Shown: piece after piece, positions 3,628 through 15,563 of the stretch
Position numbering within the stretch: the stretch's first letter is position 1
Layout of the letters: the number at the start of each line of letters is the position of its first letter
NCBI RefSeq assembly: GCF_006402735.1
Contig: NZ_CP017174.1
Span: 3,475,001 to 3,539,000 of the forward strand
Source of the DNA: Myxococcus xanthus
GTDB taxonomy: Bacteria > Myxococcota > Myxococcia > Myxococcales > Myxococcaceae
Direction: 5' to 3'
DNA: 64,000 bases
Notes under the pieces: generated by a model
The model's database searches: none
What the model saw: the letters and a program-made list of their open reading frames with translations, nothing else
Told to the model about the DNA's origin: nothing
Translations under genes and position numbers: made by a program

Positions 3628-6600
3628 TTACTTGTCCAGCTCGTCCACCAGGGCCGTCCAGTCGTCGTCTTCCTTGGCCGTGGGCAACTGGATGACCAGG
3701 GTCCGGTCGGTGGGCTCGGACTCGTCACTCAGCGCCGCCGGCGGGGCGGGAGCCGGGGCAGGGGCCTTCTTCGCGGCGGCGGCCTGGGCCGCAGGCTTGG
3801 CGGTCGGCTTCTTCGCCGGGGCCTGGGCTGCAGCGGGCGCGATGACCTGGTTGAGCTGCGTCCTCACGGCCAGCTCGTCGTCCTCGGCCGTCGCGGGCTT
3901 GGCGGCGGCCTTGGCCGGGGTGGCCGCGGTGGCGGACTTGCTCTTGTATCGGGCCAGCTCCAGCTCGGCGACCTTGAGGGCCTTGCTCTTCTCCTGCACG
4001 GACTGCTGCAGGCGGGCGACCTCCTGCGCCTTGATGGCGTCGCGACGCTCCAGCTCCGCCTTCTGCTTGGCGGTGAGGTCTTCCTGCTCCTTGGCGTGCC
4101 GCGCCTCCAGGTCCTTGCGCTCCTTCTGCGCGGCGGCCAGGCGGGTGGAAGCCTCGTGGGCCTTGCTCTCGGCGGCGGCCACCTTGGCGTTTAGTTCCTT
4201 CTCCGCGCGGGACTTGGCGCCCTGCGCGTTCTCCACCGCCAGCTCCAGGTCCTGGATCTTCTTCGCCCGCGCGCTCAGCTGGCCCTGCAGGTCCTTGGCC
4301 CTGGCGTCGGCCTCGGTGGCCTGCGTCTGGGCGTCCTGCGTGAACTGGGCGATGCGCTGCTCGGCCTTGGCCAGCTTCGCGGCCAGTTCGTCCGCCGCGC
4401 GCTTGGCGTCGGCACGTTCCTGGTTCGCCTGCTGGGCCTGCTGCTGGAGCCGGGCCTCGGCCTGCTGGACCTGTCCCGCGAGGCCGTCCCGCTCGGCGGT
4501 GAGTTTCTGCTGGGCGGCGCCCGCGGCGCGCAGCTGGTCCTCGCGGCCCGCCAGCGCCTTGCGGCCCTGTTCGAGCTGCTCGTTGAGACCCGTAATCTGC
4601 TGACCCAGGCCCTCGGCCTGACGGTGGGCCTCGGTGGCCTGCGTCTGGAGCTTGGCCTCCAGGGACTTGAGCTGCTCGGTGCGGGTGGCGACCTCGCGGT
4701 TGAGCACCTCCGCCTGACGCATCTTCTCCTGCGTCACGTGGGTGAGCTTGCGGAGCGTGTCCGACAGCTCCGTGCCCTTCTGCGTCAGGTCGTTCTGGAG
4801 GAGCTCCTCGCGGCGCTGCGACTCCTCGGTGAGCGTGTGCAGCCGCTCCTCGAGGTGGGCCCGGGTGTTCTCCGTCTGCGCCAGCGCGGCGGTGAGCTGC
4901 GTCAGCTCGGCGACGCGTGTGCCCAGCTCGTGCTTGGTGAGGGTGAGGTGTTCGCCCAGGTCCTCGCCATGGGCACGCGCTTCGGCCAGCTGGCCTTCCA
5001 GCGCGGCCTGGGTGCTCGCGGCGGCCTTCCGGCTCTCCTGGTGCGCGTGCTGCTCGCGCGCCAGCGCGTCGCGGGTGGCGGCGAGCTGGCCTTGGGTCTG
5101 CTCCAGCGTCTGGCTGGTGGCCTCCAGCTCGGAGCGGAGTCCGTCGCGCTCACTGGTGAGGTCACCGATGTGCGCGCTCGTCTCCTCGGCCAGCTTCTCG
5201 TGCGCGGCCCGCTCGGCCTCGTAGTTGCCCTGCGTCTCGGACAGCTCGCTGCGGAGCTGACCAATCTGCCCGGTGAGGTCCTGCTCCAGCGCGTCCTTGG
5301 CCGCGCCCAGGTCCGCCAGCTCCGCGATGCGCTGGTCGCGCTCGCGGGTGGTGTGGGCCAGTGTGTCGCTGGTCTCCTGGAGCGCGCCGCGCGTGTCCTC
5401 CAGCGCCGCATGCGTCTGCTGGAGCGTCTGGGAGGTGGCGTCCAACTCGCCGCGCGTCTGCGCCAGCGTGTCCTCGGTCTGGGCCAGCGTCTGCTGCGTC
5501 TGAGCCAGCGTCTGGGAAGTGGCCTCCAGCTCGCCGCGGGTCTCCGCCAGCGCGCCTTCCGTCTGGGCCAGCGCCTGCTGCGTCTGGCCCAGCGTCTGGC
5601 TGGTGGCGTCCAGCTCGCCGCGGGTCTCCGCCAGCGCGCCTTCCATCTGGGCCAACGTCTGCTGCGTCTGGCCCAGCGTCTGGCTGGTGGCGTCCAGCTC
5701 GCCGCGCGTCTCCGCCAGCGCGCCTTCCGTCTGGGCCAGCGCCTGCTGCGTCTGGCCCAGCGTCTGGCTGGTGGCGTCCAGCTCGCCGCGCGTCTCCGCC
5801 AGCGCGCCCTCGGTATCCGAGAGGCGCGCCTGCGTATCCGCCAGCGTCTGGCTGGTGGCGTCCAGTTCGCCGCGCGTCTCCGCCAGCGTGCCTTCGGTGC
5901 TGGCGAGCGTGTTCTGCGTGTCGGCGAGCTGCTGCTCCGTCTGCGCCAGCGTCTGTTGTGTCTGCGTCAGCGTCTGGCTGGTGGCCTCCAGGTCTCCGCT
6001 CAGCTCGGAGATGCGCTGGTCGCGCGCGGCCACGTCCCCTTGCAGGGACTCGATGGTGGACTCCCGCTGGGTGACGGTGTCCTCCAGCTGGGCCACGCGC
6101 GCGGAGAGCTGTTCGCCGGTCCGCTGCGAGTCATCGAGCTGCCGCTGCGTCTCCTCGAGCTGCGAGGTGAGCGCCTGGATCTGGCCGGTGAGGTCCGCTT
6201 CGAGCTCGGCCTTGGCGGAGCGCAGCTCCTCCAGCTGACGGGAGAGGTCCGCCTCCAGCGCGTCCTTCGCCTGGGAGAGGGCCTGGAGCCGGTCGTTGAG
6301 GTCCGTCTCCAGTTCGTCCTTGGCCTGGCCCAGCGCCTGGAGCTCCGCGGTCAGCTCATTCTCGCGGTCCTCCAGGTGCGTCTTGACGGCCTCGACTTCG
6401 CCCTCGAGCTCGCCGATGCGCTCCAACTGCTGCTGGATGTTGGCGTTGAGCTCCGCCTCGGTGTGCTCGTTCCGGGCGATGGTCTCCGACAGCTCACGCT
6501 CGAGCGTGCCGAGCTTCGCGTCACGCTCCTCGACGCGCTGGGTGAGCTCGGCCTCCTGGGCGTCCTTGTCCAGCCGGAGCTGGTCGCGCTCGCCCGTGGT

Positions 6601-8019
6601 GCGCGCGAGGTCCGCCTCCAGGTCCGCGACCTGCTGGCTGAGCTTCGCCTCCAGCGCATCACGCTCGGCGTTGAGCCGGTGGATTTCCGCGTCCGCCTGG
6701 GTGCCGTGCTCCTCGGCGCGGGCAGCGCGGGCTTCCAGGCCGCGCACGGTGGTGTCGCGCTCCTGCTCGGTCTGCTGCAGCCGCTCCTGGAGGGCCTGGA
6801 TTTCACCGTCCAGCTCGGCGAAGCGCTGGTCACGCTCGCTGATGGTGCGGTTCAGCTCGGCCTCGAAGTCGTCACCGCGCTTCGTCAGCCGCGCGATTTC
6901 GCCTTCATTCGCGAGGACGGTGTCCTGGAGCTTCTGCTCCTTGACCTCGAACTCGAGCGTGACGACGCCGAGGTGCTTCTCCAGCTTGTCGTACTCGTTG
7001 CGGCCGTGCTCCAGCTCGCCGGCGCGGCGGCTCAGCTCCTCCTCGGCGCGGGAGACTTCCCGGCGCAGGAGGTTGATGTCCTTCTCCTTGGAGGCGACGA
7101 CCTCGATGAGGTCCTTCTCCGCGGAGAACTTCTGGAGGAGCAGGTCGTCGACGGTGGCGCCGTGCTCGCGTTCCTTCTGGATGGTGGCCTGCTGGGCCTC
7201 GTTGAAGCGGCGCAGCAGGTCGTCCACCTGCATCTTCAGGCCCTGCAGCTCCACGTCCTTCTCGTGGATGCGGTCCTCGCCGGAGAGCAGCTCGCGCTCG
7301 CGCACGTTCCAGATCTCGGAGAGGCGGGCGAGCTGGGCCTCGCGCGTCTTCAGCTCGTCGCGGAGGATTTGAATCTTGCCCTCGGGCGTGCCCATCAGCT
7401 CGCGCCGCGGCGGCGGACGCTTGAGCTGGCGGGACTCGGCGAGCAGCTCCGCCTTGCGGTCCGCGATGGACTGGAAGGTGCGGTCGAGGAACGCGCGGTC
7501 CTCTTCCGTCATCGCGCTACGGCGCTCGCGCTTGGGCAGCTTCGGCGGCCCACCCGCGGCGGCCTTGAGTGACGGAGGCATGGGCGGCGGCGCCTCGCGC
7601 GTCCCGTTCAGCGCGGCATCCAGCGACGCGCCCGTGTCATCCGTGCCCGGCGGCACGATGCCGTGGCTCAGGGCGGCCAGCTCGCCCATCTCGAATGGGA
7701 TGGCGAGGTAGCCGTCCGCGGCCTGTGGCGTCTGACGATGCTGCGCCAGACCATCCACGCCGCTCTCGGAGGAGAGCAGGAGGACCTTGAGGTTCTGACC
7801 CCACTTGCCCTTCTTGATGTTGCCGCAGAGGACGAAGCCGGACTGATCCTTCAGCTCCGCGCGGAGGACGACCAGGTCTGGCCGGCGCTTCTCCAGCTCA
7901 CGCTGTGCGTCAGCCGCCGTCTCAGCCAAGGCTGTCTGGTATCCCGCGCCCTTGAGCACGGTGGCCATACTGAGCGCAAAATCATGCTCGCTTTCGACGA
8001 TGAGGACCCGACGCTCCAT
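3628..8019 (-). CDS. aglZ: AglZ, gliding-motility filament-forming pseudo-receiver/coiled-coil protein
   Basis: The 1463-residue protein has an N-terminal CheY-like fold (residues 1 to about 120) and then a nearly unbroken coiled coil of about 1150 residues ending in an Ala/Pro/Lys-rich tail (last about 100 residues). This is the architecture of AglZ, the cytosolic partner of MglA and the gliding (A-motility) complexes of Myxococcus xanthus. The receiver looks non-phosphorylatable: by my alignment the phospho-acceptor aspartate position is Arg53 and the conserved Lys of the KPF motif is Ile107 (YLAIPF). Six near-identical 28-residue (four-heptad) units lie in the middle of the coil. I recall the M. 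xanthus protein as about 1395 residues, so this allele is somewhat longer. The start is ATG 8017-8019 with AAAGGG upstream. Its role in polarised gliding and Frz signalling is literature knowledge, not visible here. Confidence 0.93.
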   Translation of the reverse strand: MERRVLIVESEHDFALSMATVLKGAGYQTALAETAADAQRELEKRRPDLVVLRAELKDQSGFVLCGNIKKGKWGQNLKVLLLSSESGVDGLAQHRQTPQAADGYLAIPFEMGELAALSHGIVPPGTDDTGASLDAALNGTREAPPPMPPSLKAAAGGPPKLPKRERRSAMTEEDRAFLDRTFQSIADRKAELLAESRQLKRPPPRRELMGTPEGKIQILRDELKTREAQLARLSEIWNVRERELLSGEDRIHEKDVELQGLKMQVDDLLRRFNEAQQATIQKEREHGATVDDLLLQKFSAEKDLIEVVASKEKDINLLRREVSRAEEELSRRAGELEHGRNEYDKLEKHLGVVTLEFEVKEQKLQDTVLANEGEIARLTKRGDDFEAELNRTISERDQRFAELDGEIQALQERLQQTEQERDTTVRGLEARAARAEEHGTQADAEIHRLNAERDALEAKLSQQVADLEADLARTTGERDQLRLDKDAQEAELTQRVEERDAKLGTLERELSETIARNEHTEAELNANIQQQLERIGELEGEVEAVKTHLEDRENELTAELQALGQAKDELETDLNDRLQALSQAKDALEADLSRQLEELRSAKAELEADLTGQIQALTSQLEETQRQLDDSQRTGEQLSARVAQLEDTVTQRESTIESLQGDVAARDQRISELSGDLEATSQTLTQTQQTLAQTEQQLADTQNTLASTEGTLAETRGELDATSQTLADTQARLSDTEGALAETRGELDATSQTLGQTQQALAQTEGALAETRGELDATSQTLGQTQQTLAQMEGALAETRGELDATSQTLGQTQQALAQTEGALAETRGELEATSQTLAQTQQTLAQTEDTLAQTRGELDATSQTLQQTHAALEDTRGALQETSDTLAHTTRERDQRIAELADLGAAKDALEQDLTGQIGQLRSELSETQGNYEAERAAHEKLAEETSAHIGDLTSERDGLRSELEATSQTLEQTQGQLAATRDALAREQHAHQESRKAAASTQAALEGQLAEARAHGEDLGEHLTLTKHELGTRVAELTQLTAALAQTENTRAHLEERLHTLTEESQRREELLQNDLTQKGTELSDTLRKLTHVTQEKMRQAEVLNREVATRTEQLKSLEAKLQTQATEAHRQAEGLGQQITGLNEQLEQGRKALAGREDQLRAAGAAQQKLTAERDGLAGQVQQAEARLQQQAQQANQERADAKRAADELAAKLAKAEQRIAQFTQDAQTQATEADARAKDLQGQLSARAKKIQDLELAVENAQGAKSRAEKELNAKVAAAESKAHEASTRLAAAQKERKDLEARHAKEQEDLTAKQKAELERRDAIKAQEVARLQQSVQEKSKALKVAELELARYKSKSATAATPAKAAAKPATAEDDELAVRTQLNQVIAPAAAQAPAKKPTAKPAAQAAAAKKAPAPAPAPPAALSDESEPTDRTLVIQLPTAKEDDDWTALVDELDK
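5423..5926 (-). repeat. 84-bp tandem repeats inside aglZ
   Basis: The anchor AGCGTCTG recurs at 5423, 5507, 5591, 5675, 5759 and 5843, exactly 84 bases apart. Each unit encodes 28 residues, four heptads, built around ETRGELDATSQTL and QTQQALAQTE. The units between about 5591 and 5800 are almost identical, while the outer ones have diverged. Because 84 bases is a whole number of heptads, unit gain or loss would change coil length without breaking register. Confidence 0.9.
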
Positions 8020-8118: not shown

Positions 8119-11100
8119 TCACGAGCTCTTGCCGCGGACGACGACTTCCGAACGGCCTGAGGGGGCCGGGTGGGCGGGGTTCGTGGGCTCGTCGCGGCCG
8201 GGGAACGTCGTAGGGGGCGTGTGCCGGTCGAAGCGGATTCCGTCGGGGGGGCAGTACCCGTGCGCGAGCTGGGCGAACCACGGGTTCAGCGTCGAGGGGA
8301 CGGGCTCCGGGGCGGGGCCCTCGTCGTGGGGCTCGGGGGCCACGTCGGCGTCGGCTTCCTCCAGATCGTCGTCCGATTCGATGAGCTGCGCTGCACTGCT
8401 AACGGAAATCTCCGCTTCCTCCACCTCGTCGCTGCTGATTTCGTCCGGCTCCTCGGGCTGGGGCCGCGCGCGGGAGAGGCTGTCGTCGTCGCCCTCGTCG
8501 ATGGACTGGGCTTCGTCCTCGGAGATTTCCTCGGGCTCTTCGTCCTCGCCGCTGGGGACGGGGACCGAGGCTGAGGCCTTGAGCGCCTGCGGGCTGACGG
8601 GTTCGAGCCGGGGGGGACCGTCCACGGACTGGAGCCGGGGCGGACGCTGCCGGGGAACGGGCGGGGGCGCCGCCGCGCGCGGAGGCAGGGCGGGGGGCTG
8701 GTCGGCTTCCGGCGTCGAGGTGCTCTGGCGGAGGGTCGGAGGCGGGCGCTCCGGTGTGCTCGTGGATGCGCCTCCCCGGATGGGCGGCAGGCGCTCTGCT
8801 TCGGAGGCACCCGGGCGGGAGATGGGCGGCGGCCGTTCCGTGTTCGTGGACCGCGGTTGTGGCGTCAGTGCCGTCATCCGTCCGACGGGCGTCTCCATGC
8901 GTGCGGAGATGCTCCGGCTCGACAGCGAGGAGGGCGCGGGGACGATGGGCGTGGGGGTGGGGTGCTCTTCGGGCCGGCTTGAGGAATTGGGGCCACGGCT
9001 GCTGGATGAGCGCGTGGGGATGAGCTCCTGGAGCAGTTCGGTGGGCACGCGGATGATGGGCGTCGGCGCGGGTGGCTCGTCCCGCTGGCGGTCGTAGGGC
9101 GAGCGCACCACGGGCGTGGCGGAGGAGGTCTCATCCCGTTCCGTCTCGAAGGGCGAGCGCACCACCGGCGTGTGCGAGGGCGGCTCGTAACGCGCTCCGA
9201 TGACGGGGCTGCGGACGACCGGGGTCGGCGCGGGGGCTTCAGCAGAGTCCCCGGCAGGTTCGCTGGTGCCCGCGTCCGTCCGGTTCAGCGCGGCGGGCGC
9301 CTTGATGATGGGCGTCGCTGATGAGGTTTCGCTGGAATCCGCGCCCACGGGCGAAGGAGACCGGCCCGGAGGTGGGGGGACCTTGACGACGGGCGTCGTC
9401 GCCGAGGCTTCGCTTCCGTCCTCGTTCAGCACCGACGGCAGTCGGCCTGAAGACGATGGCGCCTTGACAATGGGCGTCTTCCCCGAGGCTTCGCTGTCGT
9501 CGTCACTCTGCACGGAGGAGAACCGGCCCGATGAGGAGGGCGCTTTCACGACGGGCGTCGTCGCCGCGTGCTCACTCGTATCGTCGCTCACCGTCGAAGA
9601 GGCCTGCGCAGACGGAGCCGGCGCCTTGACGATGGGCGTCGGCGACGGGGGCGCGTCCGCGTCTTCGACCTCTGTTGCCTGCACGATGGGAAGCGCGCTT
9701 TCAGAATCGTCGTCGTCGCTCGCGTCGTGCGCGGAACCTTCCGGCGTCGCGTCCTTGCCGGCCACGCTGGACGCGGAGGCCTCGCTCTCGCGGACCGTGC
9801 TGGTCGCGGCATCGGCGGCCGCTGCGAAACGCTCTCGCAGCGGCGCGCCCATCACCACGGGCGGCTCGATGGGATTCGTCTCGAGCTCCGTCTTGATGAG
9901 GCGCGTGTCGAGCCCCTCCTCGAGCACCTGCCCCATGACCAGCGGCAGGTCTTCGCGCGCACGCCCCGTGGCAGGCGCGTCCTTGTCCTTCCGAGGCTCC
10001 GGCGCCTTCTTGGAGACCGGTGCCGCCGTGGGGGCGGGCTCGGGGGGCAGCAGCGCCGCCAGCCGGTTCGTGGGCGTTCCCGTCACCGTGGTGGGCGCGG
10101 GCAGGTTGTCCTCGCTCGTGGTGGAGACTGGCTCCGACCGCTTCTCCAGCAGCGAGTCATACAGGTCCAGGAGCTTGCCGCGGATGAGCCCCGCGTCGAG
10201 CGCCGCCTCCGCGTGCGCCCGAGCCACCTGGCCCAGCTCCATCCGGCGCTTCACGTCGCGCGCCAGCTCGATGATGCGGTCGGCCAAGGCCTGGCTGTCG
10301 CCCGGAGGGAAGAAGACGCCTGCGCCAGCCGGGATGAGCTCCCGCGTCACGGGCAGGTCCGCCGCGATGATGGGGCGGCCCGCGGCGCAGTACTCCGACA
10401 CCTTCGCCAGCGGTCCGCCCTGAACGCGATTGCGCTCCACGTCATCCATGGGCAGCACACCCACGTCCGCGAGCGCGAGCACCTTGGCCAGGTCGTCGTG
10501 GTGCACCGGGGGTTGGAACTCCACCCGGTCGCCCAGGCCCAGCTCCTTCACCAGGTCATCCATGTGCGGCTGCCAGTCCGCGTGGCGCGCGCCCACCACC
10601 GTGAGGCGCACCTCTTCCTTCCGGGCCGCCACCTCCACCGCGCGCAGCAGCGTGGACAGGCCCTGCCACCCCACCTGGCTGCCCAGGTACATCATCCGGA
10701 GCGGTTCTCCGTCCGGGGCGCCCAGCACCTCGGGCGTGAAGGGCTGGAGGTCCACCGGCGCGGGCAGCACCCGGACCTGCTCCTCACTGGCGCCGAGCGA
10801 CTGGATGTACGCGCGCGTCGTCTCCGAGCCAGTGACGACGAGGTCCGCGTTCATCAGGCAGAACAGCTCCTGCCTGCGAATCTTCGACAGGAAGCGCCGG
10901 TCCCCCTCCGTCTGCGGGTGGGTGTACCGCAGCTCCTGCGAGGGGAACGTCTGGGCCTCGTAGATGAGCCGGTACCCGTAGTCTCCCTTCAGCTCGCACA
11001 ACGCATATCCGCCGAAGGGGTCCGTGAAGTGGGCGAGCGCGTAGTCCTCGCTTTCGAGCTGCCGGCGCACGGCCCGCTCGAAGGCCTGGATGCGTGAGGC

Positions 11101-11307
11101 CAGGTCCCCCGAGCCTACCGGGACGCGCAGCAGCCGGGCGCCCTGGTACTTCTCGATGTGGGAGTGGTCAGGCGTCTTCGCCGACAGCACCACCACGGAG
11201 AAGCGGTCCGGCAACGCCTTCAAGTATTCGGTCAAACGCCGGGATGAACCCGACGGACCGGGGATGACGTCGAAACTGCACAGGAGCAGTCTGGGCAGGT
11301 CGCTCAA
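8119..11307 (-). CDS. GT4-type glycosyltransferase with long repetitive disordered tail
   Basis: Residues 1 to about 390 form a GT-B glycosyltransferase of the GT4/group 1 kind. The N-terminal domain begins PRLLLCSFDVIPGPSGSSRR, and the C-terminal nucleotide-sugar domain includes RMMYLGSQVGWQGLSTLLRA and KVSEYCAAGRPIIAADLPV. The remaining about 670 residues are low-complexity, rich in Ser, Pro, Glu and Asp. They contain about ten copies of a TP[VI][VI][KR]xP motif, then an acidic Glu/Asp stretch (EEPEEISEDEAQS and the like) near the C-terminus. The start is TTG at 11305-11307; no better start is apparent. Divergently adjacent are the DUF4912 and GH57 genes, which suggests an alpha-glucan or related sugar polymer, but neither donor nor acceptor is known. 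The tail is not a feature of ordinary GT4 enzymes and could be a localisation or scaffold region next to aglZ. Confidence 0.85.
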   Translation of the reverse strand: MSDLPRLLLCSFDVIPGPSGSSRRLTEYLKALPDRFSVVVLSAKTPDHSHIEKYQGARLLRVPVGSGDLASRIQAFERAVRRQLESEDYALAHFTDPFGGYALCELKGDYGYRLIYEAQTFPSQELRYTHPQTEGDRRFLSKIRRQELFCLMNADLVVTGSETTRAYIQSLGASEEQVRVLPAPVDLQPFTPEVLGAPDGEPLRMMYLGSQVGWQGLSTLLRAVEVAARKEEVRLTVVGARHADWQPHMDDLVKELGLGDRVEFQPPVHHDDLAKVLALADVGVLPMDDVERNRVQGGPLAKVSEYCAAGRPIIAADLPVTRELIPAGAGVFFPPGDSQALADRIIELARDVKRRMELGQVARAHAEAALDAGLIRGKLLDLYDSLLEKRSEPVSTTSEDNLPAPTTVTGTPTNRLAALLPPEPAPTAAPVSKKAPEPRKDKDAPATGRAREDLPLVMGQVLEEGLDTRLIKTELETNPIEPPVVMGAPLRERFAAAADAATSTVRESEASASSVAGKDATPEGSAHDASDDDDSESALPIVQATEVEDADAPPSPTPIVKAPAPSAQASSTVSDDTSEHAATTPVVKAPSSSGRFSSVQSDDDSEASGKTPIVKAPSSSGRLPSVLNEDGSEASATTPVVKVPPPPGRSPSPVGADSSETSSATPIIKAPAALNRTDAGTSEPAGDSAEAPAPTPVVRSPVIGARYEPPSHTPVVRSPFETERDETSSATPVVRSPYDRQRDEPPAPTPIIRVPTELLQELIPTRSSSSRGPNSSSRPEEHPTPTPIVPAPSSLSSRSISARMETPVGRMTALTPQPRSTNTERPPPISRPGASEAERLPPIRGGASTSTPERPPPTLRQSTSTPEADQPPALPPRAAAPPPVPRQRPPRLQSVDGPPRLEPVSPQALKASASVPVPSGEDEEPEEISEDEAQSIDEGDDDSLSRARPQPEEPDEISSDEVEEAEISVSSAAQLIESDDDLEEADADVAPEPHDEGPAPEPVPSTLNPWFAQLAHGYCPPDGIRFDRHTPPTTFPGRDEPTNPAHPAPSGRSEVVVRGKSS
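8943..9650 (-). repeat. TP[VI][VI][KR]xP short repeats in the glycosyltransferase tail
   Basis: About ten copies of a heptapeptide (TPIVKAP, TPVVKAP, TPVVRSP, TPIIRVP and variants) are spaced mostly by 15-30 residues. Between them are Ser-rich and Asp/Glu-rich linkers such as SSSGR and DDDSEAS. At DNA level the mark is repeated GATGGGCGTC/GACGGGCGTC. The motif is far better conserved than the linkers. Confidence 0.8.
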
Positions 11308-11437: not shown

Positions 11438-13948
11438 ATGGAAGACCTCAAGAGCGTGACGGTCAGCTACCTCAGGGAGTTGGCACGGAAGCACCTGGGG
11501 AGCGGCTACAGCCGGATGAAAAAAGAGGAGCTGCTCGCAGCTCTGGCCGCCTACGTCCCCGCCCTGGCGAAGCTCGCCCGGTTGGCAGGCATCCGCGTGC
11601 CTCCCAAGCGTTCGGCCGCGAAACCCGCAGCGTCTCCTGCCCGGGCCTCCGCCGCCAAGAAGGCCAAGGCGCCCACCACTGACGCCGCGAAGGCGCCCCG
11701 GAAGTCGAAGACCCCGACCGCCGCGAAGCCCAAGACCGACGGCGCGCAAGGCCAGGGGAGGGTGTCCGCGCCCAAGCGGGTGGCCGCCAAGCGGGCCTCC
11801 GAGAAGCCCGGGAGCAAGCCGACCGTCAAACCCGCGAAGGTGGTCACGTTCCCGCCCAAGCCCCGAGTGGAACGGGCGCGTGAGCCGGTGACGCCCGTCA
11901 TGCCTTCCGTCACGAGGCCGCCCGTTCCCGCGCCGGAACCGGTGCCGCAATCCGTCACGCGGCCCGCGCCCGTGCAAAAGCCCGCGGAGCCCGTGGTGGA
12001 GGGCTTCTTCGTGGCGCGCGTGGCTGGCGAGGAGGAGGCGCGTAGCCACCACCTGGTGGAAAGCGTGCCTGTTCCGCCTCCGGCCTCCGCGGATACCGAA
12101 AGATTGGGTGAGCTGCCGGAGGGGTATCAGGACGACGCCGTCCTCCTGTTGCCCAGGGACCCGCACACGCTCTTCGTGTCCTGGGACTTCAGTCTGGGGG
12201 CCCTGCTGCGCGCGCGGGATGCACTGGAGGCGCCGCGTCCCGTGCTTCGTGTGTTCGGTGATGAACAGCTGGAGCGGGAGTTGGACTTCGCGGTGGAGGC
12301 TCCCGGCTTCTACATCCACGGGTTGCCGGCGGGGCGGACGTATCGCGTGGAGGCGCACTTCGCCGGTCGTGATGGGCGGAGCCGCCGCATCGGTGCTTCG
12401 AGCAACCGCGTGACGCTGCCTCCCGCGGGTGTCTCCACGGATTTGACGGTGCGTTTCCTTCGGGTTCCTCCGCTTGAGGCGGCGCTGCCCGCGGCGGTCG
12501 TGGAAGCGCCGCCGCCGGAAGAGGAGCGCGAGTACGTGTCGTGGCGCCGGGTGAACCTGCCTGGCAGTGGCGGCGTGCTGGATGTGCCGGAAGTCCACAG
12601 ACAGCGTCGTGGCGGTGACATGACGGAGGCGCACCTGGAGGGCCCCGCGCGAGCGCCGGGCGCTTCGGACCAGCGGTACGTGGAGTCGGTGGAACGCGTG
12701 CCTGGGGCTTCGGACCAACGGTACGTGGACTCGGTGGGGCGAGCGGCGGGGGCTTCGGACCAGCGCTATCAGTCGGACGCGGCGCAGCGGAATGCGCGCG
12801 AGGTGCGTGGCCCCGTGACGGCTCCCGTGTCGCGCTACCTGGAGACCCTGGGCCGTGCACCGGGGGCTTCGGATATGCGTCATGCGGAAGGGGACGCTCG
12901 CGAGGCGGGGAGGGGGCAAGGGTCCCGTGCGTATCTGGAGGTGAAGGGCGTCCCGGGCGCATCGGACCTGCGCTACGCGGAAGGCGGCGCGGCACGCCAG
13001 GCAGGCAGTGACACGTCACCGCACCGCTACCTGGACGTGAAGGGCATCCCGGGCGCATCAGACCTGCGCTACTCGGAAGGCGGCACGGCTGTCCCTACGG
13101 GCAGTGGCACGTCGCCTCATCGATACCTGGACGTGAAGGGCATCCCGGGCGCATCAGAGCTGCGCTACGCGGAAGGCGGTGCGACGCGCGCGCCGGTCAG
13201 CGGCGCTTCGCCTTATCGCTATCTCGATGTGAGGGGCATTCCGGGTGCATCGGACCTCCGCTATGCGGAAGGTGCGGCGACTTCGCATCAGCATCACCTG
13301 GACGTAAGGCGCATTCTGGGAGCGTCGGACATGCGCTACCTGGAGTCGCCGCCCCGCGCGCCGGGTGCATCGGAGCAACGCTACCTGGCGCCACCTCCAC
13401 AGCGGGCAGGCGCCTCGGATCTTCGTTACCTGGATGCCCCGGAACGGGCGTCGGGTGCCTCGGAGCGTCGCTACCTGGAGCCATCGCAGCCGCAGCCGGG
13501 CGCATCGGATCGCCGCCACCTGGATTCTCCTCGGCAGGGGACAGGCGCCTCGGGTCGTGGCTTCCTCGAGGCTCCGACTCAACCGTCGGGCGCTTCCGAC
13601 AGCCAGCACGCGGACGCGTCGTCAGCACGCACAGAAACCGGAACCACCGCCAAGGATGCTCGCGGCTCCGGTACTCAACCCCCTGCGGTCGAGGAGAACC
13701 ACCGCGACTTCGAGGCTCCTCCACGTTCATCCCGCGCCACGGTTCCGGGCAGCGACGCCCAGGCGCAGGGAGACGCCGGCGCGGAGGAGAACCACCGCTA
13801 CTTCGAAGTGCCCCGGTCCCGAGCGGAAGGCGCGCCACATCACCGCACGGCGGCTCCTTCCTCCTTCGAGGCCCGCGACGGCCATGCCACCCCCGACGCG
13901 GCCGAGCCACCTCCCCAGAAGCCGCCTTCGGACGACGGCCGCTCCTGA
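11438..13948 (+). CDS. Rho_N/SAP-DUF4912 protein with GASDxRY repeats
   Basis: The about 836-residue product has four parts. Residues 1 to about 45 resemble a Rho N-terminal/SAP helix-extended-loop-helix (YLRELARKHLGSGYSRMKKE). A Lys/Ala/Pro-rich linker runs to about 190. A DUF4912-type domain follows (about 220-350; DDAVLLLPRDPHTLFVSWDF, then FYIHGLPAGRTYRVEAHF). The last part is a long repeat region with 15 GAS[DE]xRY-type motifs. Rho_N/SAP folds commonly bind nucleic acid, while DUF4912 is often encoded beside GH57 enzymes and may bind carbohydrate (family knowledge). The GH57 gene starts 25 bases downstream, so they probably form an operon. The ATG at 11438 is chosen; an in-frame TTG six bases earlier is better spaced from the TAAAGG at 11421-11426 and could be used. 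Confidence 0.8.
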   Translation: MEDLKSVTVSYLRELARKHLGSGYSRMKKEELLAALAAYVPALAKLARLAGIRVPPKRSAAKPAASPARASAAKKAKAPTTDAAKAPRKSKTPTAAKPKTDGAQGQGRVSAPKRVAAKRASEKPGSKPTVKPAKVVTFPPKPRVERAREPVTPVMPSVTRPPVPAPEPVPQSVTRPAPVQKPAEPVVEGFFVARVAGEEEARSHHLVESVPVPPPASADTERLGELPEGYQDDAVLLLPRDPHTLFVSWDFSLGALLRARDALEAPRPVLRVFGDEQLERELDFAVEAPGFYIHGLPAGRTYRVEAHFAGRDGRSRRIGASSNRVTLPPAGVSTDLTVRFLRVPPLEAALPAAVVEAPPPEEEREYVSWRRVNLPGSGGVLDVPEVHRQRRGGDMTEAHLEGPARAPGASDQRYVESVERVPGASDQRYVDSVGRAAGASDQRYQSDAAQRNAREVRGPVTAPVSRYLETLGRAPGASDMRHAEGDAREAGRGQGSRAYLEVKGVPGASDLRYAEGGAARQAGSDTSPHRYLDVKGIPGASDLRYSEGGTAVPTGSGTSPHRYLDVKGIPGASELRYAEGGATRAPVSGASPYRYLDVRGIPGASDLRYAEGAATSHQHHLDVRRILGASDMRYLESPPRAPGASEQRYLAPPPQRAGASDLRYLDAPERASGASERRYLEPSQPQPGASDRRHLDSPRQGTGASGRGFLEAPTQPSGASDSQHADASSARTETGTTAKDARGSGTQPPAVEENHRDFEAPPRSSRATVPGSDAQAQGDAGAEENHRYFEVPRSRAEGAPHHRTAAPSSFEARDGHATPDAAEPPPQKPPSDDGRS
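12649..13612 (+). repeat. GASDxRY tandem peptide repeats
   Basis: Fifteen copies of a GAS[DEG]xR[YHF] motif occur in the C-terminal third of the DUF4912 protein. The first three and the last seven recur every 15 residues (form R-x-P-GASDQRY-x5). Units 4-8 are longer, about 32 residues in the clearest cases, and add an insert containing SPHRYLDVK. The last two copies are degenerate (GASGRGF, GASDSQH). Confidence 0.88.
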
Positions 13949-13973: not shown

Positions 13974-15563
13974 ATGAGTCTGGGCTCCCTCGCGCTGGTG
14001 CTCCACGCGCACCTTCCCTTCGTCCGGCACCCCGAGCATGAGGACTTCCTCGAGGAGGACTGGCTCTACGAGGCCATCTCCGAGACGTACCTCCCGCTGC
14101 TCCAGGTCTTCGACGGACTGGCGGAGGACGGCGTCCCGTTCCGCCTGGCGATGACGCTGTCTCCAACGCTCGTCTCCATGCTGCGCGACGAGCTGCTGAT
14201 GAGCCGCTACGCACGGCGGCTGGACCTGCTCTGCGAACTGGGCGCGCGAGAGGCGCACCGGACGCGAGACGACGCCACCTTCGGCCCCATTGCCCGCTTC
14301 TACCGGGACCACTTCGAGTCTCTGCGCCGCGCGTTCCACGACCGCTACAAGCGCGACCTCGTCTCTGGGTTCCGGCGGCTCCAGGACGCGGGCTACCTGG
14401 ACATCCTCACCTGCAACGCGACGCACGGTTTCCTGCCGTTGATGCAGCAGGTGCCCGAAGCCGTTCGCGCCCAGGTGACGGTGGCCGCGAATCACTACCG
14501 CCAGCACTTCGGCAGGGACCCGGCCGGTATCTGGCTCGCCGAGTGCGGCTACTACCCGGGCCTGGAGCGCCTGCTGGCCAGTGAGCGCATCCGTTACTTC
14601 TTCGTCGACACGCACGGCCTGACGGACGCCGTGCCCCGGCCCTTGCATGGCCCCTACGCACCCGTCTTCACCGAGGCGGGCGTCGCCGCGTATGCCCGAG
14701 ACCCGGAGAGCAGCCAGCAGGTGTGGAGCACCGAGCACGGCTACCCGGGCGACCCGGACTACCGCGAGTTCTACCGGGACATCGGCTGGGACCTGGACCT
14801 GGACTACATTCGCCCGTTCATCCAGCCCACCGGCGAGCGCAAGAACACCGGCTTCAAGTACTTCCGCATCACCGGGAAGACGAACGACAAGCGCCCGTAT
14901 GATCCGCTCGCTGCGCGTGAGCGGGCCTCGGTGCATGCGGGCAACTTCCTGTTCAACCGCCAACGGCAGATTGAAGACCTGGCCTCGCGCCTGGGTGGCC
15001 GGGAGCCCGTGGTCGTCGCGCCCTATGACGCCGAGCTCTTCGGCCACTGGTGGTTCGAGGGGCCCCAGTTCCTCGACTTCCTCATCCGCAAGGTCGCGTA
15101 TGACCAGACGACGTTCCGGCTGGTGACGCCGTTGGATGACCTGCGGGAGCATCCGGAGAACCAGGTGGCGACGCCGCCGCTGTCCTCGTGGGGCGCGGGG
15201 GGCTACGCCAACATGTGGCTCGACGGGAGCAATGATTGGATCTACCGCCACCTCAACCACTGCGCGAAGCAGATGGTGGAGCTGGCGCGGGACTTCCCGG
15301 ATGCCGGTGAGCTGCAACGTCGCGCGCTCAATCAGGCCGCCAGGGAGTTGTTGCTCGCCCAGTCCTCCGACTGGGCCTTCATCATGAAGACGGGCACCAT
15401 GGTGGAGTACGCCCAGCGCCGCACGCGCGAGCACATCCTGCGCTTCCAGCGCCTGCACGAGCAGCTGCGCGGCGGCAGTCTGGACGAGGGCTGGCTCACC
15501 CACGTGGAAGGCCGGGACAACCTCTATCCAGAGCTGGACTACCGCCTCTATCTGCCTGCCTGA
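13974..15563 (+). CDS. GH57 family 1,4-alpha-glucan branching enzyme
   Basis: This 529-residue protein matches the GH57/DUF1957 branching enzymes. It has the N-terminal barrel start (LALVLHAHLPFVRHPE), the nucleophile segment GIWLAECGYYPGLE with Glu190, and the acid/base segment APYDAELFGHWWFEG with Asp352. A C-terminal all-helical domain follows (SSDWAFIMKTGTMVEYAQRR). These enzymes cut alpha-1,4 linkages and re-form alpha-1,6 branches in glycogen-like glucans in the cytosol. It starts 25 bases after the DUF4912 gene, with GGAG about 13 bases before ATG. The pairing GT4-DUF4912-GH57 suggests synthesis or remodelling of a storage or surface alpha-glucan. Branching rather than hydrolytic activity is inferred from overall similarity. 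Confidence 0.9.
   Translation: MSLGSLALVLHAHLPFVRHPEHEDFLEEDWLYEAISETYLPLLQVFDGLAEDGVPFRLAMTLSPTLVSMLRDELLMSRYARRLDLLCELGAREAHRTRDDATFGPIARFYRDHFESLRRAFHDRYKRDLVSGFRRLQDAGYLDILTCNATHGFLPLMQQVPEAVRAQVTVAANHYRQHFGRDPAGIWLAECGYYPGLERLLASERIRYFFVDTHGLTDAVPRPLHGPYAPVFTEAGVAAYARDPESSQQVWSTEHGYPGDPDYREFYRDIGWDLDLDYIRPFIQPTGERKNTGFKYFRITGKTNDKRPYDPLAARERASVHAGNFLFNRQRQIEDLASRLGGREPVVVAPYDAELFGHWWFEGPQFLDFLIRKVAYDQTTFRLVTPLDDLREHPENQVATPPLSSWGAGGYANMWLDGSNDWIYRHLNHCAKQMVELARDFPDAGELQRRALNQAARELLLAQSSDWAFIMKTGTMVEYAQRRTREHILRFQRLHEQLRGGSLDEGWLTHVEGRDNLYPELDYRLYLPA

Follow-up and report, generated by a model that had tools for sequence, protein, structure and literature searches.

What does the long, repetitive tail of an uncharacterised DUF4912 protein of Myxococcus xanthus do, encoded directly in front of an alpha-glucan branching enzyme of family GH57? 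The gene lies in a stretch of 64,000 nucleotides (NCBI RefSeq assembly GCF_006402735.1, contig NZ_CP017174.1, positions 3,475,001 to 3,539,000 of the forward strand), which is called the window here and to which all positions refer. The original prediction, made from the sequence of this window, had described a GASDxRY peptide repeated 15 times in the protein. Many relatives keep the motif while its spacing, flanks and copy number change, and we therefore read the tail as one that probably serves docking at many sites. We see about an even chance that the DUF4912 protein is an accessory or scaffold partner of the adjacent GH57 branching enzyme, with a multivalent tail of short linear motifs.

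Translation of the open reading frame (ORF) placed 15 copies of GAS[DEG] at residues 408-718 (DNA 12659-13609), as had been described. Across the 15 units G, A and S are each present in 15/15, D or E follows in 14/15, R is found in 13/15 and Y, H or F in 15/15. Thirteen units fit GAS[DEG].R[YHF], whereas 20,000 shuffles of the 441-residue tail gave a maximum of one and a mean of 0.002. Shuffling of this tail and of those of relatives speaks against chance or a low-complexity artefact. Independently, Tandem Repeats Finder detected a 45-bp and a 96-bp array in the DNA. The spacings between successive copies are 15, 15, 38, 31, 32, 32, 32 and 25 residues and then six times 15, and the 15-residue period reported for both ends of the array thus holds. 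The 32-residue unit with SPHRYLDVK was right in part. Two of the middle units contain SPHRYLDVK exactly, but the unit of 31-32 residues is a composite of two half-units, one being GAS[DE]xRYxEGG and the other of the SPHRYLDVKGIP type, with the kindred half-units SPYRYLDVR, SHQHHLDVR and SRAYLEVK. Both halves end in an aromatic residue or His followed by x-[DE]. The extent of the GAS[DEG] units also stands, but two copies of EENHR[YD]FE[VA]P lie beyond the end given for the array. The description of the region as the C-terminal third of the protein was too narrow, since the predicted disordered tail (residues 393-836) makes up over half of it and the array covers about residues 402-733. No named family was found for the repeat, in agreement with the original prediction. 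The window tail and two tails of longer DUF4912 proteins from distant genomes matched no Pfam family at E<=10, the window tail matched no NCBIfam family at E<=1, and the best E for the repeat profile against the sequences of PDB chains was 0.83 (an endoglycoceramidase), which is chance level. A fit to a known repeat family had been named beforehand as the result that would speak against the claim, and none appeared in these searches. We also considered whether the array derives from the G[AHP]SSNRV sequence with which the DUF4912 domain ends. In relatives the GAS at residue 319 varies (GHSSN, GPSSN), and coincidence is likelier.

The array changes rapidly among close relatives. One DUF4912 gene is present in each of the 27 Myxococcus genomes searched (27/27), and all 27 carry the motif, although its absence from close relatives had been proposed as the other result that would count against the claim. 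The loci from the genome search carry about 1,500 bp on either side of the domain and some tails are incomplete, so that the copy numbers of G[AS]S[DEG] in these genomes, at least 2 to at least 19, are lower bounds. Relatives with a GH57 protein 97-98% identical to that of the window have 13, 12, 11, 10 and 8 copies compared with its 15, which indicates that the array gains and loses units fast, in blocks of 15 and 32 residues. The two kinds of block vary in copy number separately, as expected from the separate amplification events that had been suggested. Fast turnover of this kind is also what neutral expansion would produce, in which a GC-rich disordered tail duplicates by slippage or recombination and the motif is hitch-hiking history. 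The 96-bp and 45-bp units are still recognisable as tandem DNA arrays, and some species have nearly homogenised arrays (L006, L007, L022 and L023), as neutral expansion would have it. We nevertheless regard this explanation as quite improbable because the core lasts while period and flanks are replaced, and because GAS[DE] is more constrained than the linkers and the folded domain while synonymous codons have diverged between units.

This constraint was measured as the ratio of non-synonymous to synonymous differences (pN/pS), in uncorrected proportions throughout. Among the 15 window units, which were picked by the motif and are therefore biased, pN/pS is 0.054/0.619 for GAS[DE], 0.171/0.614 for RY and 0.610/0.656 for the linkers. 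Pooled over comparisons with seven relatives, in which only the window side was picked in that way, the ratio is 0.14 for GAS[DE], 0.27 for RY, 0.57 for the linkers and 0.94 for the L[DE] after RY, compared with 0.35 in the folded domain and 0.44 in the disordered part near the N-terminus, with pS unequal between these categories. In single comparisons, where few sites are available for the closest pairs, GAS[DE] ranges over 0.10-0.28 and the linkers over 0.42-0.72, and RY is likewise calculated from few sites. Several codons are used per site across the 15 units although G-A-S is kept. The core thus looks selected on pN/pS, being tighter than the folded domain while the linkers drift, and this pattern fits a short linear motif in a disordered tail and not unselected slippage.

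The DUF4912 domain was called in 69/96 genomes of the family and in 128/195 of the phylum, 127 of them above the cut-off (G186 is below), and comparison of these proteins redefines the motif. In one genus the repeat has 14-residue units (RAAGASDQRYLSVP) with the flank QRYLSV. In another it has 13-residue units (GPAGSSEQWVWSA) with the flank QWVWS and a Trp after most cores. A third genus has SSGPAGSSEQG with WVW and a fourth has RPGGSSEQYLDFSR. GASD-RY as the kept core therefore gave way to the wider G[AS]S[DE], since other genera drop RY. The L[DE] after RY is under no visible constraint. The expectation of a conserved motif with variable linkers, as in a multivalent binding array, survives in the many copies and the pN/pS contrast, and the strict GASD-RY does not. 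A count of 4-mers made independently of the motif agrees with the wider core: a 4-mer occurs three or more times in 59/92 tails, and the commonest such word lies on the core in 48/59 (GASD 22, PGAS 10, SSEQ 6, GASE 4, GSSE 3, ASDQ 2, SDQR 1). By region, two or more motifs with p<=0.01 against shuffles were found in 0/115 stretches before the domain and in 77/115 tails, redundant loci included.

A census of G[AGS]S[DE] took in 94 proteins, which belong to 92 of the 128 DUF4912-positive genomes; group f2 contributed 1 of its 12 genomes. Some of these tails, too, are incomplete, and their motif counts are lower bounds. At least two motifs and p<=0.01 against 1,000 shuffles were found in 65/94 proteins, comprising 27/27 in the genus, 31/37 in the rest of the family, 3/3 long forms of f3, 1/2 in f8 and single members of f16, f17 and f27. 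The test was passed by 0/9 short forms of f3, 0/6 proteins of f11, 0/2 of f19 and 0/1 each of f2, f7, f9, f14 and f18. Long-form proteins of distant genomes (L102-L105) end in 8-residue repeats of the GASERRLG type. Judged from these sequences, shared descent of GASE and the GAS[DE] of Myxococcus is plausible, and convergence is possible. Three f3 genomes, G136, G141 and G143 (L103-L105, L114, L121), have two DUF4912 matches each, one of them a long form with 8-residue GASE repeats; in G136 and G143 the other is a short form free of these repeats. In three genomes of other families (L088/L115, L099, L101) the DUF4912 tail ends share the motif RSSGPWSGS or close variants. Outside the phylum, 3/14 control genomes have a DUF4912 match, 2 of them above the cut-off. 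A search of the 27 Myxococcus genomes with the genus profile for a second repeat gene scored the best 150 of 355-575 candidates per genome, and among the matches listed, to about E 0.04, the best outside the DUF4912 gene was 6.5e-4 (G018:C4), followed by 5e-3 and worse.

The residues beside the core raise two further explanations. Spaced Tyr and Trp could bind alpha-glucan directly as aromatic platforms, with GAS[DE] as the turn that presents them. Every core of the window protein is followed by Y or H/F, and most cores of the 13-residue genus by W. In the basic linker near its N-terminus the window protein has neither Tyr nor Trp, and the link of DUF4912 to GH57 points to alpha-glucan. The strictly kept part is, however, GAS[DE] and not the aromatic residue, and the f3 long forms and L118 carry GASE or GSE repeats with few or no aromatics, which makes such a glucan-binding comb unlikely. 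Alternatively, the Arg-Tyr pairs (Trp in other genera) could be stickers that drive homotypic condensation of the protein, the enzyme being recruited through the folded domain. A tail that is predicted to be disordered and is nearly neutral (50 Arg, 18 Tyr, net charge -5) is suited to this, as is the even spacing of aromatics in 31/48 motif-rich arrays. We consider self-association of this type improbable, given that the most constrained residues are those of GAS[DE] and that proteins of g3, g7 and g8 and the long forms have no GASDxRY and yet keep the motif core.

The DUF4912 protein is tied genetically to its neighbour, a glucan-branching enzyme. This agrees with the original prediction in so far as a glucan had been named there as a possible partner; glucan binding and polymerisation by the array remain suggestions. 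GH57 lies directly downstream of DUF4912 in 99/120 Myxococcota loci (redundant by genome), and the remaining 21 loci extend no more than 255 bp past the DUF4912 stop codon, so that the order is the same in 99/99 loci with room for it. In one further locus, L087, our own profile found no DUF4912 ORF. GH57 is present in 128/128 DUF4912-positive genomes and DUF4912 in 0/54 GH57-negative ones (Fisher p 4e-36); a DUF4912 gene was not found in the phylum without a GH57 gene. The DUF4912 proteins beside GH57 share the domain above its cut-off as well as the gene order, and the GAS[DE] tail of the window protein falls outside the Pfam match. The GH57 neighbour scores above the cut-offs of PF03065 (110.3 bits, cut-off 21.2) and PF09210 (BE_C; 137.5, cut-off 25). 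The nearest solved structure is AmyC of T. maritima (2b5d, E 1.6e-167), which was identified as a glycogen-branching enzyme (PMC6616209). The NCBIfam equivalogs of the Thermococcales and Thermus branching enzymes are out of reach (319.4 against 1000 and 313.5 against 920 bits), and by these scores the protein is of a different sub-branch.

Thirteen genomes have GH57 without a DUF4912 call, and the surroundings of GH57 were examined in 11 of them. Three of these genes lie close to a contig end, which is 425 bp upstream of GH57 in G048 (G048:C15), 170 bp in G083 (G083:C168) and 97 bp in G154 (G154:C54), and in G048 an ORF resembling the C-terminal end of the tail is still visible. Assembly breaks at the place expected for the repeat-bearing gene suggest that draft genomes may undercount DUF4912. 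At this place G078 and G074 have a divergent ORF with similarity to the DUF4912 region (E 4.7e-6 and 2.7e-5), and in G087, G112 and G183 the similarity is by eye only. The other three of the 11 are G110, G184 and G185, and none of the 11 entered the DUF4912 counts. G077 and G105, which complete the thirteen, have weak GH57 matches (best E 2e-32 and 2e-38). Among plasmids the window protein had no match and GH57 had two distant ones.

The predicted disorder, the conserved core in many copies and the genetic tie to GH57 are results of computation. From them we infer that GAS[DE] binds a partner, that this partner is GH57 or a glucan, and that valency clusters them. Each G[AS]S[DE] would weakly dock one and the same conserved partner, the likeliest candidates being the GH57 enzyme and its glucan product, and many copies would give high-avidity, tunable clustering of enzyme, substrate or both. 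The adjoining Tyr of RY in Myxococcus, or Trp of W-x-W elsewhere, may be a lineage-specific sticker. Copy number would set the strength of binding and would drift through tandem duplication and loss. Several observations weigh against this docking tail. Four of the 27 same-genus proteins have only two copies, which is weak for a strict clustering role. DUF4912 and GH57 occur together without the motif in 9/9 short forms of f3 and 6/6 proteins of f11, so that the basic relation of DUF4912 to GH57 does not depend on the array, whose partner may be another one. The aromatics are unevenly spaced in 17/48 arrays, and 3/4 GASE long forms have just 4-6 of them. The picking of window units by the motif, the unequal pS and the few sites of the closest pairs also count here.

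The invariant Ser of the core allows two other explanations. It stands in 15/15 window units, beside Asp or Glu in 14/15, and might be phosphorylated or glycosylated, the number of sites giving a graded response. No obvious kinase is found among the neighbours examined, and an array of modification sites is very unlikely in our view. The invariant Ser and the gene neighbours are also compatible with a primer, in which the GAS[DE] Ser, or the neighbouring Tyr, would be a sugar acceptor, the neighbouring GT4 glycosyltransferase would start glucan chains and GH57 would branch them. Such a tail, a bacterial counterpart with many sites of what we take glycogenin to be, would set the number of chains per particle by its copy number. 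We hold this for highly improbable.

The structure of the protein was predicted with AlphaFold2 from 41 aligned proteins, that of the window and 40 taken from the loci (Table 1). The predicted local distance difference test (pLDDT) is about 95 for the DUF4912 domain, and from residue 393 on no secondary structure is predicted. A folded solenoid of repeats is rejected for the window tail on this ground. The tail of a long form was also modelled as disordered, in a poor model (mean pLDDT 41.5, 5 sequences), and its 8-residue GASE repeats may have a fold. The start codon agrees with the M-[ED]-DLKSVTV start of relatives. The Pfam profile PF16258 gives the domain 55.7 bits, above the cut-off of 29.4, and the N-terminal domain is Rho_N-like only, with 19.6 bits at residues 3-36 against the curated cut-off of 24.9 (PF07498). 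The following linker has a net charge of +23, no Tyr or Trp and 3 Phe. Nearly invariant columns are E188, G189, F190, F191, V192, A193, G197 and H204 in the segment ahead of the domain, W369, R371, P375, G376 and S377 in the hairpin, and G408 and S410 in the first unit of block A.

Table 1. Position of the DUF4912 gene, parts of its protein and neighbouring genes in the window.
Feature	Position	Strand	Basis or remark
DUF4912 protein, 836 residues, with repeat tail	11438 (ATG)..13948	+	ORF and Pfam
N-terminal helical domain, residues 9-49, Rho_N/SAP-like, below Pfam cut-off	11462..11584	+	helices 9-19, 29-39, 41-49 (AlphaFold2)
Basic Pro/Ala/Lys-rich linker, residues 51-195	11588..12022	+	mostly low pLDDT
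Conserved EGFFVARV...HHL segment ahead of DUF4912, residues 188-206	11999..12055	+	41-protein alignment
DUF4912 domain, residues 230-335, predicted FN3-like beta sandwich	12125..12442	+	Pfam, AlphaFold2 and fold searches
Predicted beta-hairpin, residues 361-391, REYVSWRRVNLPG...	12518..12610	+	pLDDT about 82
Predicted disordered C-terminal tail, residues 393-836	12614..13945	+	pLDDT <50 nearly throughout
Block A: three GASDQRY units at 15-residue spacing, then spacer ending SRYLETLGRAP	12659..12862	+	
Block B: alternation of five GAS[DE]-R[YH] half-units with a half-unit of the xRYL[DE]V type, spacing 31-32 residues, last 25	12863..13318	+	
Block C: seven 15-residue GAS[DEG] units, degenerate toward end	13319..13612	+	
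Two further EENHR[DY]FE[AV]P copies past the array	13691..13813	+	
C-terminal end KPPSDDGRS	13919..13945	+	consensus of 41 proteins KPPSGxGR
GH57 1,4-alpha-glucan branching enzyme	13974..15563	+	25 bp downstream of DUF4912 gene, same strand; PF03065, PF09210
Divergent GT4 glycosyltransferase with own TP[IV][VI][KR]xP repeat tail	8119..11307	-	Pfam

The modelled domain resembles FN3 domains, the best match being 8fn9_H (Z 9.6, root-mean-square deviation 3.0, 90 residues) among many tied rows. The 50 matches listed (VIA) have Z values of 8.7-9.6 and titles that are mostly FN3, fibronectin, tenascin or receptor ectodomains; Foldseek likewise gave mostly FN3-type matches and one polygalacturonase. 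No carbohydrate-binding module is among the fold matches listed for the domain, and the DUF4912 profile gave no significant sequence match to solved structures (best E 0.67). The likeness to FN3 thus comes from the model, and the fold is a generic one.

Multivalent disordered linkers are an already known kind of device. According to parts of a review, the disordered repeat regions of EPYC1, CsoS2 and CcmM bind Rubisco many times and cluster it (PMC8573418). The DUF4912 tail is similar in its predicted disorder, in the many copies of one short motif and in its tie, by genetic linkage, to one enzyme gene. It differs in the enzyme and in its four-residue core, and the parallel is one of layout. 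By analogy the tail may work like the linkers of EPYC1 and CsoS2, and we do not claim it as a member of their group. In the literature searched, judged mostly from listings, no description of DUF4912 function was found, and the word was met in an irrelevant cotton transcriptome paper. It is not named in the accessible parts of a long review (PMC11046441). The literature on MXAN_2990, MXAN_2992, MXAN_2993 and MXAN_2994, aglZ, the GH57 branching enzyme in Myxococcus and disordered scaffolds gave no description of the window protein. We met no account of the repeat or its wide core in the literature searched, and DUF4912 appears to be known by name only. An uncharacterised family is thus tied to one enzyme across a phylum and has, in a core of four residues present in up to 19 copies, a concrete feature that can be mutated. 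Should the array serve to dock the branching enzyme or its glucan, bacteria would possess a scaffold that clusters an enzyme of alpha-glucan synthesis by the logic of the Rubisco linkers, and the natural variants with 2-19 copies in one genus would allow the effect of valency on clustering to be tested. The fast-evolving tail also offers a clean case of a core and its linkers under different constraint.

Among 20 family loci with surroundings (L058-L077), the divergent GT4 gene is present in 19/20 and an aglZ-like gene, with a receiver and coiled-coil layout, in 20/20. The name AglZ for this neighbour is partly our assumption. AglZ is MXAN_2991 in the sections available of one report (PMC4546325). 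In the available parts of a 2025 mBio paper, the GH57 protein MXAN_2994 is among 11 proteins enriched near the exopolysaccharide regulator EpsW in wild-type cells by miniTurbo, and according to its authors it is not known to matter for exopolysaccharide (PMC12802240). Gene order suggests that MXAN_2994 is the orthologue of the window GH57, and its proximity to EpsW is a lead only. At about residues 540-790 the GT4 protein has 9 copies of [TS]P[IV][VIM][KR]xP, spaced mostly by 27 and then by 18 residues; of ten GT4 relatives, four (L061, L063, L070, L077) have 3-6 copies and six have none. The AglZ-like coiled-coil protein (1463 residues, ORF 3628-8019 on the minus strand) contains about six 84-bp tandem repeats (GELDATSQTL...) at 5423-5919, so that three neighbouring genes, for the AglZ-like, GT4 and DUF4912 proteins, each carry tandem repeats.

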